Part shown: positions 18,741-53,019 of the stretch, one piece after another
Layout: every line of letters starts with the position of its first letter
How positions within the stretch are numbered: position 1 is the first letter of the stretch
From: a virus
IMG/VR virus record: IMGVR_UViG_3300021961_000137
Coordinates: 1 to 53,280 of that record
Reading direction: 5' to 3' (one strand)
DNA length: 53,280 nt
Notes under the pieces: generated by a model
Told to the model about the DNA's origin: nothing
The model's database searches: none
The model's input: the letters and a program-made list of their open reading frames with translations, nothing else
Position numbers and translations under genes: made by a program

Positions 18741-20417
<1,677 letters not shown>

Positions 20418-47512: not shown

Positions 47513-47568
47513 TTGACCGGGTACCCGGATGCTGTAGAATACGCACAAGGGCACCCTGCGCGGAAATA
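47513..47568 (+). promoter_or_regulatory. Plus-strand promoter/leader element, copy 1
   Basis: TTGACC (47513-47518), 16-base spacer holding CCGGGTACCCGG, TAGAAT (47535-47540), then ACCCTGCGCGGAAATA at 47553-47568. The conserved block starts 18 bases after the first base of the -10. There is no plus-strand gene downstream; a transcript would be antisense to the 3' end of 47641-47973. Confidence 0.65.
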
Positions 47569-47572
47569 CTGG

Positions 47573-47635
47573 TATAAAGAATTGGCAAAAAGATGGGTCC
47601 CTAAGTGTTACTTAAGGACCCTACAGTTCTTTATA
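47573..47635 (-). terminator. Nested stem-loop terminator after 47641-47973
   Basis: The inner stem (47595-47606 with 47610-47621, 11 of 12 pairs) is followed on the minus strand by ATCTTTTTG, a terminator. An outer pair, TATAAAGAATTG (47573-47584) with CAGTTCTTTATA (47624-47635), encloses it with one G-T pair. Confidence 0.75.
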
Positions 47636-47640
47636 CTATA

Positions 47641-47973
47641 TCAGACAAGTTTGGCACTACCAGTGAACTTAACATCGCCATCGGTTGTTGATAGAAACCA
47701 CTGGTGATTCTTCTGATAGATTCTTTCATACTTGCCATCCTTATCTTTACCTCTACCATGCTTTTCAAGAATAGCATTCAGTCTGCTTTTTGTGGTGTTT
47801 GTTTGATACCCAGCATCGAACAGTTCCAACCACGTATCAGCAACCATTGCAATCAAATTATCATACAAATAGACGAAAGATACGCCTTCAATGTTGATAA
47901 CTTGTGTGTTATCTTTCTTCCAATCATACTCACCTTGAATCGCAGCATTCATTGCAACTTCGATCTTACGCAT
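47641..47973 (-). CDS. Phage protein of unknown function
   Basis: This 110-residue protein (MRKIEVAMNAAIQGEYDWKK...) has a QTNTTKSRLNAILEKHG segment that I recall in small proteins of many phages, where a YLYDNLIA strand and a QKNHQWFLS strand flank it. It looks like a compact alpha/beta fold, possibly involved in nucleic-acid binding, but no function is known. It has its own promoter (47999-48027) and a terminator straight after its stop. Confidence 0.7.
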   Translation of the reverse strand: MRKIEVAMNAAIQGEYDWKKDNTQVINIEGVSFVYLYDNLIAMVADTWLELFDAGYQTNTTKSRLNAILEKHGRGKDKDGKYERIYQKNHQWFLSTTDGDVKFTGSAKLV

Positions 47974-47993
47974 TGGTGTGATTGAATTCGACT

Positions 47994-48027
47994 TTTATAG
48001 AATCCCACAGAATCGCGGAAAGGTCAA
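47994..48027 (-). promoter_or_regulatory. Sigma70-like promoter of 47641-47973
   Basis: TTGACC (48022-48027) with GATTCT at 17 bases, followed by TATAAAAG. A TATAAA lies 22 bases from the -35, so the true -10 is unclear; the same double pattern occurs before 48219-48506. Confidence 0.5.
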
Positions 48028-48095
48028 CCCTTTTTTGATTAGTTTCTTTTATGAGACCGATAAGCGATGCAAATGTTTCATTTCACGAAAACCGG

Positions 48096-48151
48096 TTGAC
48101 CGGGTACCCGGATGCTGTAGAATACCCGTAGGGACACCCTGCGCGGAAATA
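48096..48151 (+). promoter_or_regulatory. Plus-strand promoter/leader element, copy 2
   Basis: TTGACC (48096-48101), 16-base spacer with CCGGGTACCCGG, TAGAAT (48118-48123), and ACCCTGCGCGGAAATA at 48136-48151, again 18 bases from the -10 start. Nearly identical to copy 1 from -35 to the block. Confidence 0.65.
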
Positions 48152-48156
48152 CTGGT

Positions 48157-48216
48157 ATAACAAACTGGTGAAAAAAGGGTCCCTAAGTGTTACTTAAGGA
48201 CCCAACAGTTTGTGTT
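48157..48216 (-). terminator. Nested stem-loop terminator after 48219-48506
   Basis: The inner stem (48177-48188 with 48192-48203) is nearly the same as that at 47595-47621 and is followed on the minus strand by TTTTTTC, a canonical terminator. The outer arms here are AACAAACTG and CAGTTTGT, different bases from copy 1 but again complementary. Confidence 0.85.
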
Positions 48217-48218
48217 AC

Positions 48219-48506
48219 TTAGCGAAAGGCACCAAGTTTCAAAAACTCAGCGGTAATTTGCTTCTCTGCGATACGCTTACCGTTGATCTGGAAAGTATAA
48301 CGCAACTGCCCTTTTACAGTTTTTGAGACTTTACAGGTGAGCGTAATTTCACCATCACGTTCACCAGTAGGATCATACTTTGCGAAATAATGATGACAAA
48401 CTCCAGGAAGACGATAATCAACAACGTCGTTCAGTTTGTTATAGTGTTCCAGAGCAAGTTGCTCAGAAAGTTTAATAGAATCGAAGAGGTCGTTGATGTT
48501 GTTCAT
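48219..48506 (-). CDS. Small protein of unknown function
   Basis: This 95-residue protein (MNNINDLFDSIKLSEQLALE...) has a helical N-terminus and a beta-rich second half with HHYFAKYDPTGERDGEITLT and VKGQLRYTFQINGKRI. The conserved YRLPGVCHHYF segment suggests a small folded domain. No family recognised. The leader carries the shared TATAAGGGTCGAAAGGGATT motif ahead of the ATG. Its stop codon lies exactly at the edge of the repeated spacer. Confidence 0.65.
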   Translation of the reverse strand: MNNINDLFDSIKLSEQLALEHYNKLNDVVDYRLPGVCHHYFAKYDPTGERDGEITLTCKVSKTVKGQLRYTFQINGKRIAEKQITAEFLKLGAFR

Positions 48507-48531
48507 GGGTGGAATCCCTTTCGACCCTTAT

Positions 48532-48560
48532 AGATTCTCACAGATCCCAGATCCTGTCAA
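48532..48560 (-). promoter_or_regulatory. Sigma70-like promoter of 48219-48506
   Basis: A perfect TTGACA (48555-48560) with GAATCT at 17 bases and TATAAG further on. Leads into the shared leader GGGTCGAAAGGGATT. Confidence 0.5.
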
Positions 48561-48606
48561 GGGTTTTTTGATCAGAGATGCTTATGTAAAGTCTTGCAAC
48601 AATCCC

Positions 48607-48662
48607 TTTACAGGGTCGCGAGATGCTGTAGAATACCAACAGGCGCACCCTGCGCGGAAATA
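48607..48662 (+). promoter_or_regulatory. Plus-strand promoter/leader element, copy 3
   Basis: TTTACA (48607-48612), 16-base spacer, TAGAAT (48629-48634), ACCCTGCGCGGAAATA at 48647-48662 (18 bases from the -10). The spacer palindrome of copies 1 and 2 is replaced by GGGTCGCGAG. Confidence 0.6.
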
Positions 48663-48731
48663 ATACTATAAAGAATTAAACAAGAATCACTAATTGATTC
48701 TTTATACTTAGTTAAATGTAAAGAATTAAAT

Positions 48732-48766
48732 AAGGACTTCGTGAGATTTATAATCACGAAGTCCTT
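48732..48766. terminator. Strong two-way terminator-like hairpin
   Basis: A 13-base perfect stem (48732-48744 with 48754-48766, arms AAGGACTTCGTGA and its complement) with a 9-base loop. It has TTTT on the plus-strand side and ATTTAATTCTTT on the minus side, so it may end transcripts both ways. It lies just past the stop of 48784-48957. Confidence 0.7.
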
Positions 48767-48783
48767 TTACGAGTTTGTGTTAC

Positions 48784-48957
48784 TTAGTCGCAGAACCTTT
48801 TTTCATAAGCACGGCGAATCTTATGGAGAACTTTAGAAGATTCTGCAAATTCTTCTTCAGTATAGTTCTCGGGAAACAATGCACTCAATGCTTCATCCAA
48901 CCAATACAATTCGTTCTGGTTGAATGTAATGCTGGTGGTCTTAGTTCGGGTTGCCAT
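48784..48957 (-). CDS. Small protein of unknown function
   Basis: This 57-residue protein, MATRTKTTSITFNQNELYWL followed by an acidic helical part (DEALSALFPENYTEEEFAE) and a basic end, is shorter than usual ORF cut-offs. It is supported by a promoter with good spacing, the shared leader TTTAAGGAGTCGAAAGGG and a terminator after the stop. Its helical acid-base layout could suit a small regulator or inhibitor, but there is no recognised family. Confidence 0.65.
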   Translation of the reverse strand: MATRTKTTSITFNQNELYWLDEALSALFPENYTEEEFAESSKVLHKIRRAYEKRFCD

Positions 48958-48983
48958 TAGGTTGATTCCCTTTCGACTCCTTA

Positions 48984-49012
48984 AAGTTACAGCAGATTCC
49001 AGCGCCAGTCAA
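48984..49012 (-). promoter_or_regulatory. Sigma70-like promoter of 48784-48957
   Basis: TTGACT (49007-49012), 17-base spacer, TAACTT (48984-48989), then the shared leader TTTAAGGAGTCGAAAGGG. Confidence 0.6.
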
Positions 49013-49070
49013 CCACCTTGTGCCACTAATCAAACTGTCCACTGAATCAACCACTGCCCTTCAAAACCGC

Positions 49071-49104
49071 TATAATTGTCTTGTACCCACCCTGCTCTGA
49101 AATA
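49071..49104 (+). promoter_or_regulatory. Plus-strand element, copy 4 (diverged)
   Basis: TATAAT (49071-49076) with only a weak -35 and ACCCTGCTCTGAAATA at 49089-49104, keeping the 18-base distance. It lies in the 314-base gap 48958-49271, which otherwise holds only the promoter at 48984, two ATTCACGA words and the terminator at 49229. Confidence 0.5.
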
Positions 49105-49228
49105 ACAGTATAACAAACTAAAAAAACGAGTTCTTTATACTTTCTCTTTTTGTTGAAATTTTATTCTCCTGCAGGTATTAGGACTCATTCACGATTCCAT
49201 TCACGAAAAAACAAAAACTATAAAAAAA

Positions 49229-49250
49229 GAGAGAGGAGTTACCCTCTCTC
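49229..49250 (-). terminator. Intrinsic terminator after 49272-49481
   Basis: GAGAGAGG pairs with CCTCTCTC over a six-base loop, followed on the minus strand by TTTTTTTATAG. Confidence 0.9.
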
Positions 49251-49271
49251 AGTATCACTCAGAATCTACAT

Positions 49272-49481
49272 TCACGCAAGTTGCAGTACATTAGCGCGGA
49301 GTGCTTGATTCACGAAACTACCCACAGATTCACCCTCTTCGATGACATTGTTGAGGTCATTTTCCCAGGCATCAGTATCAGAAACCGTGTAGGTGTAGGG
49401 TTTACCATTGAACTCGATTGTCACTTGATTATTCTCAACGTCGCTGATCTTGGTGATAACGGAACTGGTGAAGTTAGGCAT
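49272..49481 (-). CDS. Small protein of unknown function
   Basis: This 69-residue protein (MPNFTSSVITKISDVENNQV...) looks like a small beta-sheet domain: VTIEFNGKPYTYTVSD is an antiparallel hairpin, followed by an acidic helix DAWENDLNNVIEEGESV. It lies downstream of the GP88-type gene with a hairpin between, and has no clear promoter of its own. No family recognised, although the strand pattern is reminiscent of KTSC-like small domains. Confidence 0.6.
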   Translation of the reverse strand: MPNFTSSVITKISDVENNQVTIEFNGKPYTYTVSDTDAWENDLNNVIEEGESVGSFVNQALRANVLQLA

Positions 49482-49505
49482 GATGTTGAAAAGAATTAAA
49501 GAGAA

Positions 49506-49556
49506 CAGTTTGAGCAGTTTAGAGTCATACTCAGGACTGTTAATTAACTCAAACTG
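49506..49556 (-). terminator. Possible weak terminator or attenuator after the GP88-type gene
   Basis: CAGTTTGAG (49506-49514) pairs with CTCAAACTG (49548-49556) over a 33-base loop, and the minus strand continues TTCTCTTTAATTC. It spans the gp88 stop codon; it could reduce read-through into the 69-residue gene. Confidence 0.5.
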
Positions 49557-50286
49557 CTGCTACAGTTTTCTTAGAATAACCGCTAAACTGTTTGTTAGCA
49601 CGACGCTGGCGGATTGCAGCACCCCATGCACTACCCTTAGGTTGAGTTCCATGCACTAACAACGCAAACGGTTTGTTAATGAAACAGTGCGACTCATCGT
49701 GATCTACTTCAAGACCCGCACGGTTTGCATCATCCTCAGTCATAAAGACCTTAGCATAACGAGTAAAGAATCCCTCATCAATTAGGTAGTCAAACTTACC
49801 ACCATAAGATGCAGTAAGGTAGAAGTTATTGGGCAGAATCTTACCCATAAAGAGATCCAAACTCTTCGAATAGCAGTAGAACTTAAGATCAGGATTCAGA
49901 CGTGCTACTTCTAACCAAGCATCCAGATAGTGGTGATTAAAGAAATCACCAGACTCATGAATCCGCACTTTAGAAACTCTTTTAGTACGGTGTGATTGAA
50001 TGCTTTCGTTGATTAAATTCACAAGAGAATCATCACGCATTGCATTCACGACCAACTGAAAATTACGAGCGCGAGAGTAGAATACAGCATCGTATTGCAC
50101 TTCGGAAGATGCTGCGAAACAACGAAACTCTGTATGCTCGCCGTCTTTAATAGTACGCTTGCCGTTTGCATCAACAACTGCAAAAGACTTACAGTATAAT
50201 GCACCAGGGCAAGTCTTACCTGCAGGAAGACTAAAGATCAGCGTATCCTTAGCGATCTTACCGTTGCCGATGGAGAGTTTCAGCAT
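49549..50286 (-). CDS. GP88-family protein
   Basis: This 245-residue protein has features of the phage GP88 family (named after a mycobacteriophage gene product): FSLPAGKTCPGALYCKS near residue 18-35, with the conserved TCPGA..C pattern, and RIHESGDFFN followed by YLDAWLEVARLNPDLKFYCY. Four Cys and several His/Asp residues are suited for metal or cluster binding, but the activity is unknown. The C-terminus (AAIRQRRANKQFSGYSKKTV) is basic. The gene has TAACTT as a -10 but a poor -35, followed by a variant of the shared leader. Family recognition is fairly sure, function is not. Confidence 0.75.
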   Translation of the reverse strand: MLKLSIGNGKIAKDTLIFSLPAGKTCPGALYCKSFAVVDANGKRTIKDGEHTEFRCFAASSEVQYDAVFYSRARNFQLVVNAMRDDSLVNLINESIQSHRTKRVSKVRIHESGDFFNHHYLDAWLEVARLNPDLKFYCYSKSLDLFMGKILPNNFYLTASYGGKFDYLIDEGFFTRYAKVFMTEDDANRAGLEVDHDESHCFINKPFALLVHGTQPKGSAWGAAIRQRRANKQFSGYSKKTVAAV

Positions 50287-50492
50287 GGGAGGAATCCCTG
50301 ACGACTCCCTTAAGTTACAGCAGATTCCACCACCACACCATCACCTTGTGCCACTTCTCAAACCGTCCACCAGACCGCTCCAGATGCCCTCAGATGCCTT
50401 ACAATACTATCAGTTCAAGGGAAGACACCTATGAGTGTTTAATACACAATCTGCAAAGCGTAGAGAACGCAATGACACAAATCTAGACACTT

Positions 50493-50508
50493 ACCCTGCG
50501 CGGAAATA
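50493..50508 (+). promoter_or_regulatory. Plus-strand element, copy 5 (block only)
   Basis: A perfect ACCCTGCGCGGAAATA block, but the -10 position 18 bases upstream reads ACACAA, so the promoter seems lost. A TACAAT lies farther up, near 50399. Confidence 0.5.
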
Positions 50509-50531
50509 ATATACTATAAACAACAAAAAAA

Positions 50532-50550
50532 GAGTTAGTAATACTAACTC
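50532..50550 (-). terminator. Intrinsic terminator after 50563-50889
   Basis: GAGTTAGT pairs with ACTAACTC around a three-base loop, followed on the minus strand by TTTTTTTG. It sits 12 bases past the stop codon. Confidence 0.9.
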
Positions 50551-50562
50551 CTTAAGTATAAA

Positions 50563-50889
50563 CTATTGCATCTCCGCCCACTTTTGAATCTTTGCTACAA
50601 CATCTTGTGCAGACTTAATCTTACATTTACGATGCTTTCCTACCAGATAATGCTTAGAAATCTGATCAAGTTTCAGATCATTATGTATTGCAAACTGAGA
50701 ATACCTAGAGTTCTGATAGATTCCATTGCTCCAGGATTCTTTATCATCAAGCGACACATTTACGAACACTGAAGGAATACCTCCCAGAGTCATAATAGAC
50801 ACAGAATACTCTTTAATTGCACTCACATTACTGAGCAATTCTTTAATCTCAGAGAGTGAAGATTCTTGAGCGAGAGTAACAATGTCCAT
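50563..50889 (-). CDS. Small protein of unknown function
   Basis: This 108-residue protein starts MDIVTLAQESSLSEIKELLS. A longer frame from a GTG at 50922 exists, but that part overlaps the -10 of a good promoter (50913-50941), so I take the ATG at 50889. The C-terminal region is basic (HYLVGKHRKCKIKSAQDVVA) with a middle beta segment IMTLGGIPSVFVNVSLDD. No family recognised; a nucleic-acid-binding tail is possible. Confidence 0.65.
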   Translation of the reverse strand: MDIVTLAQESSLSEIKELLSNVSAIKEYSVSIMTLGGIPSVFVNVSLDDKESWSNGIYQNSRYSQFAIHNDLKLDQISKHYLVGKHRKCKIKSAQDVVAKIQKWAEMQ

Positions 50890-50912
50890 GAGATTGTCTC
50901 TTTGACCCTTTA

Positions 50913-50941
50913 AGTATTGCACCGATCCAGCACCGTGTCAA
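50913..50941 (-). promoter_or_regulatory. Sigma70-like promoter of 50563-50889
   Basis: TTGACA (50936-50941), 17-base spacer, AATACT (50913-50918). It decides the ATG start of the gene. Its -35 flank is mirrored by the divergent promoter at 50988. Confidence 0.65.
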
Positions 50942-50987
50942 GGGTTTTATGATCAGCAATCCTTATGTAACGATTCACGAAAAACCC

Positions 50988-51044
50988 TTGACGGATGCTC
51001 TGAGATCTGATAGACTACCTTTGTACCTACCCTGCAATGAAATA
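50988..51044 (+). promoter_or_regulatory. Plus-strand promoter/leader element, copy 6
   Basis: TTGACG (50988-50993), 17-base spacer, TAGACT (51011-51016) and ACCCTGCAATGAAATA at 51029-51044, again 18 bases from the -10. It diverges from the promoter at 50913-50941. Confidence 0.55.
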
Positions 51045-51103
51045 ATAAAGTATAAACAACTCAAAACGAATTCACTATACTTTCACTTTTTCATGCAAAA
51101 TTA

Positions 51104-51137
51104 AAGTCCCACAGGTGCTTTGATACCTGCAGGACTT
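51104..51137 (-). terminator. Probable terminator after 51178-51351
   Basis: AAGTCC...AGGT pairs with ACCT...GGACTT with a small internal loop; the minus strand continues TTAATTTTGC. Weaker than the other terminators. Confidence 0.6.
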
Positions 51138-51177
51138 CATTCACGAAAAAACAATTCTTATAAACGAACTGACGAAC

Positions 51178-51351
51178 TTACCAACGGTCGGGTGTACTTA
51201 AGTCCTCAACGTAAGCATCACACTTCTCTGCAGGTTCCAATTTGAATAACTTTTCCCAATCAATTTGGTGTGGGTCGAAGTCTGGAAACGCGGAGATGTC
51301 TAGAGTAATCCTATAACGAACCTTCTGTGCTTGTGAATACGCAACTGACAT
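51178..51351 (-). CDS. Small protein of unknown function
   Basis: This 57-residue protein (MSVAYSQAQKVRYRITLDIS...) starts at an ATG with AAAGGAG seven bases upstream and a near-perfect sigma70 promoter before that; the frame extends farther upstream without a start signal, so I reject the longer version. It seems a small beta-strand plus acidic helix protein (FDPHQIDWEKLFKLEPAEKC), perhaps a transcription or host-enzyme modulator, but nothing specific is recognised. Confidence 0.65.
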   Translation of the reverse strand: MSVAYSQAQKVRYRITLDISAFPDFDPHQIDWEKLFKLEPAEKCDAYVEDLSTPDRW

Positions 51352-52964: not shown

Positions 52965-52990
52965 GTCGGTTGAGTTGTTTTCGACTCTTT

Positions 52991-53019
52991 AAGAATACAT
53001 CATTTTGAGCACTGTGCTC
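52991..53019 (-). promoter_or_regulatory. Operator-like palindrome and possible promoter
   Basis: TGAGCACTGTGCTCA (53005-53019) is a perfect 7+1+7 palindrome. TATTCT (52991-52996, minus strand) lies 17 bases from TGAGCA, the outer half of the palindrome, so a regulator bound there could cover the -35. Confidence 0.5.

Follow-up and report, generated by a model that had tools for sequence, protein, structure and literature searches.

The window analysed here is the whole 53,280-nt stretch of IMG/VR virus record IMGVR_UViG_3300021961_000137. One segment contains small minus-strand genes of cyanophage type, including DUF6011, Kyanoviridae Gp96, GP88, and several PHROGs of unknown function, and everything in the window to its left consists of structural genes, also on the minus strand, in one long series. 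The usual view of lytic T4-like cyanophages is that they are full of short protein-coding genes whose role is unknown. Separately, we note at 18741-20417 a minus-strand reading frame that contains an extended stretch of glycines and repeats units resembling APMGSP.

The spacers between the small genes contain six exact copies of an ACCCTG(N4)GAAATA block, all on the plus strand (Table 1), while dinucleotide shuffles gave none. The part of the block that is conserved is ACCCTGC-N3-GAAATA. A preliminary description had reported these six blocks, and their positions and orientation against the minus-strand genes were exact. It had also placed a -10-like hexamer exactly 18 bases before the block in five copies and a recognisable -35 in four, and both observations held. 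Five of the six copies have a TAnnnT hexamer at this distance (TAGAAT in three, TATAAT and TAGACT in one each), where none is expected, and the -35 elements are separated from the -10 by 16 or 17 bases. The remaining copy, at 50493, had been left without a promoter, which we revise: it has a TACAAT at 50400 and a structured leader.

Table 1. Block copies in the window, with their promoters, predicted RNAs, and downstream hairpins. Block RNAs are listed from the predicted start to the block end.
Feature	Positions	Strand	Remark
Copy 1 promoter	47513..47540	+	TTGACC, 16 bases, TAGAAT
Copy 1 predicted RNA	47547..47568	+	A at 47547 as putative +1; block 47553-47568
Intrinsic terminator of convergent gene 47641-47973	47595..47621	-	3' of copy 1
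Copy 2 promoter	48096..48123	+	TTGACC, 16 bases, TAGAAT
Copy 2 predicted RNA	48130..48151	+	block 48136-48151
Intrinsic terminator of convergent gene 48219-48506	48177..48203	-	3' of copy 2
Copy 3 promoter	48607..48634	+	TTTACA, 16 bases, TAGAAT
Copy 3 predicted RNA	48641..48662	+	block 48647-48662
Strong hairpin, A-rich left flank, TTTT right flank	48732..48766	.	3' of copy 3
Copy 4 -10	49071..49076	+	TATAAT, no -35 (class 2)
Copy 4 predicted RNA	49083..49104	+	block 49089-49104
Terminator at end of gene 49272-49481	49225..49250	-	3' of copy 4
Copy 5 -10	50400..50405	+	TACAAT, 93 bases 5' of block (class 3); found by eye, beyond the range of the automatic -10 scan
Copy 5 structured RNA	50455..50508	+	stem 50458-50461 with 50467-50470, conserved linker, block 50493-50508; RNA model 54.3 bits, E 7e-19, this copy being among the sequences the model was built from
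Terminator of convergent gene 50563-50889	50529..50553	-	3' of copy 5
Copy 6 promoter	50988..51016	+	TTGACG, 17 bases, TAGACT
Copy 6 predicted RNA	51023..51044	+	start placed by the short-form rule; block 51029-51044
Terminator of convergent gene 51178-51351	51102..51139	-	3' of copy 6

The block recurs in related viruses, which are T4-like cyanophages and viruses of freshwater cyanobacteria. A combined scan of the window and about 30 other virus contigs identified 92 distinct copies; the contig set is partly redundant (L030 and L060, for example, are near copies), and independent phages are fewer than contigs. An exact 16-mer search of IMG/VR returned eight contigs, comprising three true relatives and five with unrelated sequence. 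A promoter-blind search added a second and larger set, in which the block lacks a -10 at 18 bases and lies behind a conserved leader, and a search with this leader added further copies. Individual contigs carry up to 12 copies (class 3). In relatives the sites are flanked by genes also seen in the window segment. In three long contigs (93-133 kb) that contain the T4-like capsid gene gp23, the copies are confined to a single early stretch spanning at most about 10 kb.

Outside this set, the RNA model detected no copy among 11 records of cyanomyoviruses, among them the freshwater phages S-CRM01 and DSL-LC02, under stricter filters that weak matches may escape, and BLAST found none among GenBank phages. 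Likewise, 81 genomes from a single cyanobacterial family yielded nothing convincing; two weak model hits there lie in or against host protein genes and were read as chance. A host copy or mimic was also considered and rejected, as the single genome-contig match (L070), upstream of an hli-like gene, lacks the second half of the block.

Copies fall into two forms. In the short form (35 of 92 distinct sites) the -10 lies 18 bases before the block; part of this set was fetched with a pattern demanding that arrangement, but the -10 is also present at 18 bases in five contigs fetched without the requirement (L003, L007, L027, L058, and L061). Class 1 promoters combine TTGAC or TTTAC with TAGACT or TAGAAT at 16-17 bases, and class 2 promoters have TATAAT or TATACT and no -35. 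The distance from promoter to block is constant while the intervening bases vary. Consistent with the expectation that the spacing would be kept in other phages, the pattern TAGANT-N12-ACCCTGCNNNGAAATA occurred in 11 contigs and TATANT-N12 in eight, while the control spacing N13 occurred with TAGANT in none and N11 in only two, where the surroundings looked like chance. The seventh position after the -10 is A or G in all 35 short-form copies and the base before it is C or T in 34. Since a purine preceded by a pyrimidine is what a start site looks like, we take this position as the predicted +1, with the block beginning at about +7. The proposal that the block forms the first 20 or so bases of a short RNA from a plus-strand promoter is therefore well supported for the short form. 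The short form itself showed no conserved fold.

The long form (class 3, 57 of 92 copies) has no -10 at 18 bases and instead carries a hairpin leader. The earlier claim that a fixed distance ties block and promoter together is therefore limited to the short form. Every one of the 57 copies has the leader hairpin, which was also checked by eye, and none of the 92 copies lacks both features. A -10 lies 48-64 nt 5' of the block in 54 of 56 class 3 copies, almost always at 59-64, and is followed by a 4-bp stem with a loop of 4-6 bases, a conserved single-stranded stretch, and the block. The conserved leader comprises the hairpin and GAUGACGA, joined in the larger subgroup by AGUAAGCCACGCUA. The block thus begins about 48-52 bases into the predicted RNA, about 42 further from the -10 than in the short form. 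Copy 5 of the window is a longer variant of this form, with C then A at the -1 and +1 positions after TACAAT.

Several lines of evidence suggest that the leader hairpin acts as RNA. A search found the stem in every core-matched long-form copy. In a 42-sequence alignment, trimmed around the best hairpin found at sites chosen by their downstream core and not by a hairpin, all 168 stem cells were paired, compared with 28-41% in slid controls. Changes on both sides of a pair affected 45 stem cells, against 12.9 in shuffles, and involved all four pairs; the covariation score was 0.83, against 0.29 in shuffles. RNAalifold returned the same stem and no other. Read on the block strand, fourteen stem cells form G-U pairs; on the opposite strand they would be A-C mismatches, which indicates that the block strand is the functional one. 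A long-form peptide was rejected because no reading frame is conserved: the AUG is replaced by GUG, UUG, ACG, or others, the stop is not kept, and copies differ by one-base deletions. The copies have three properties expected of phage small-RNA genes, namely their own promoter with a plausible start, conservation as RNA on one strand, and no conserved frame. We consider it very probable that the block copies are RNA genes.

On the downstream side, the block is followed by 3-5 bases and then by GTATAA, which belongs to the inverted repeat that encloses the convergent gene's terminator. The hairpin 3' of most copies has its T-run on the mRNA side, and some antisense read-through is likely. Nearly all copies run toward the 3' end of a gene on the opposite strand, 55-170 nt away in the window. 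The earlier suggestion of an RNA antisense to the end of the neighbouring gene thus describes the usual arrangement, but not a universal one: in at least five contigs, copies point in the same direction as a DUF6011-type gene and lie about 105 nt 5' of it. These co-directional copies are long-form (L031:4452, L060:766, L063:4449, L066:2862, and L067:2375), and no obvious terminator precedes the gene.

The early mRNA promoters lack the block, and a separate minus-strand promoter serves the gene. We also observed a shared 5' leader of early mRNAs, about TTAAGGAGTCGAAAGGGATTCAACCC-ATG, following the -10 on the minus strand at 48508-48542, 48960-48994, 50288-50322, and 52968-53002; within it, the GGG of the ribosome-binding site could base-pair with a CCC that precedes the start codon, and similar leaders occur in L016, L026, L030, and L047. 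An imperfect dyad, TTGTGCCAC...GTCCAC, occupies 49018-49042 and 50344-50370, with the divergent early promoter on one side and the block promoter (class 2 or 3) on the other. Variants of this dyad are found in relatives, and also beside early mRNA promoters in DSL-LC02 (L023 25407-25430).

Taken together, we interpret the copies as small non-coding RNA genes, with a shared role in trans as the best guess, and hold this explanation as a whole to be slightly more likely than not. The sequence itself shows the promoters, the strand, the structure, the copy number, and the conservation, whereas production of the RNA, its 3' end, and any function in trans are inferences. Each copy would be read early in infection by host RNA polymerase of the sigma-70 type. 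The RNAs of both forms would share a 3' module, consisting of ACCCUGC-N3-GAAAUA, 3-5 nt, and the terminator inverted repeat of the convergent gene, and many transcripts would present one single-stranded motif to one common partner. This partner might be an RNA of the host or of the phage, or else an RNA-binding protein, and would be titrated or guided. The same RNA stands beside many different genes, and is co-directional with the gene in five contigs, so the block RNA is not specific to the gene opposite it, and a role common to all copies is favoured. For the trans-acting role taken by itself, we judge the chances to be slightly below even. Somewhat more tentative is the specific picture in which about 5-12 promoters act together early in infection to make a multi-copy phage small RNA, titrating or redirecting one host or phage partner through the block. 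Early mRNA leaders were considered as partners. Duplexes with the short form were no better than those with shuffles (z 0.1) and gave no support for such pairing; duplexes with the long form were weakly better, with z about -0.4 overall and about -1 in two contigs.

The fixed distance had been taken to tie block and promoter together, as a 5' RNA tag or a protein-binding site, and in the short form this spacing would suit an operator or initial-transcribed-region site at which a phage or host protein acts on the promoter. In more than half of the copies, however, a covarying hairpin precedes the block and displaces it by about 42 bases along the RNA, which argues against a promoter-tied site; the added bases are RNA structure, and the early mRNA promoters have no block. 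We regard a DNA-binding site as very improbable, and the block is in all likelihood part of the RNA and not of the promoter. It is best read as an RNA element, neither a promoter-bound site nor a strict 5' tag. A promoter-proximal pause element or kink-turn was also rejected, as the three variable bases and the absent partner strand would fit neither.

Control in cis could explain why nearly all copies converge on the 3' end of a gene. The RNA would pair with the convergent early mRNA at the latter's 3' end, share its terminator, and alter stability or termination. Convergent type I antitoxin RNAs and the cyanophage RNA CfrI are thought to act in this way on the convergent mRNA. Being inverted repeats, the shared sequences are necessarily complementary, and the terminators point the mRNA way. 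Yet the conserved block and hairpin precede the overlap and are the same whatever the gene, conservation is not concentrated in the complementary part, and co-directional copies occur in at least five contigs; cis-antisense control seems unlikely. We give a similarly low weight to the possibility that the spacers are recombination cassettes like the promoter-early stem-loop (PeSL) cassettes, in which terminator, antisense promoter with block, and divergent early promoter form a unit for swapping early genes and the RNA is a by-product. Copies resemble one another more closely within a contig than between contigs (class 1, p 0.001; class 3, p 0.0005), and whole divergent promoter regions repeat. 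In contig L016, copies in three spacers are 98-100% identical, compared with only 71-81% between its copy beside the DUF6011 gene and the orthologous spacers of other phages. The highly similar block promoters, in separate spacers (L016:896, 2165, and 3057), are a sign of recent homogenisation. Shared ancestry of the copies may add to this likeness, however, and homology for recombination needs no covarying hairpin, strand-specific G-U pairs, or fixed distance between promoter and block. The within-contig likeness suggests recombination among spacers, as in PeSL cassettes, which is compatible with an RNA function.

If the small-RNA reading is correct, almost every spacer of one early segment would be an RNA gene of a single family, one that Rfam has missed and that none of the tested isolates carries. 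If transcribed, it would rank with the genes repeated most often in the phage and be a strong candidate for a part in host takeover, and it would offer a handle on the movement of early-gene cassettes. We know of no interspersed RNA family of this type in lytic phages.

Rfam searches at gathering and permissive thresholds returned no credible family, with Yfr, glnA, manA, wcaG, and abiF included. The literature searched described cyanophage CfrI, manA, wcaG, glnA, and abiF RNAs, halovirus repeats, and PeSL cassettes (Arbiol 2010 and Comeau 2014, both as cited elsewhere), and contained no multi-copy RNA of the block type. Several known systems share features with the block RNA. CfrI, cited in PMC5931967 and PMC12197685 as an antisense RNA of cyanophage S-PM2, is likewise non-coding and lies antisense to a phage gene on that gene's 3' side, but it is a single copy of about 225 nt beside psbA, whereas block copies are many, adjoin unrelated genes, and share a motif. 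Yfr1, Yfr2, and Yfr10 of cyanobacteria (PMC6778093) resemble the block RNA in their short and very conserved motif, and Yfr2 is also a family of several RNAs; these are host RNAs, however, no Yfr family reached the Rfam threshold, and the sole weak match was on the other strand (contig L047). The manA, wcaG, and PhotoRC-II RNAs (PMC2864571) are structured RNAs of T4-like cyanophages that were also found by comparison, but manA and wcaG lie mostly in 5' UTRs, PhotoRC-II is tied to psbA-like genes, and none matches the block RNA. The intergenic repeats of halovirus HF2 are promoter-bearing spacers with transcription from both strands, as predicted for the block copies, but HF2 is an archaeal virus and the abstract describes no conserved structured RNA (PMC8707807).

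A further parallel is offered by the PeSL cassettes of T4-like phages, cited in PMC4503421. Their promoter reportedly drives the next gene, while in nearly all copies the block promoter is oriented opposite to the genes. The spacers described here do have an early promoter of the sigma-70 type and a stem-loop terminator between hypervariable early genes. Both systems combine these elements in repeated spacers with small variable early genes and copies that look homogenised within a genome. The family in the window differs in its additional promoter, which points the other way and would make a predicted conserved RNA.
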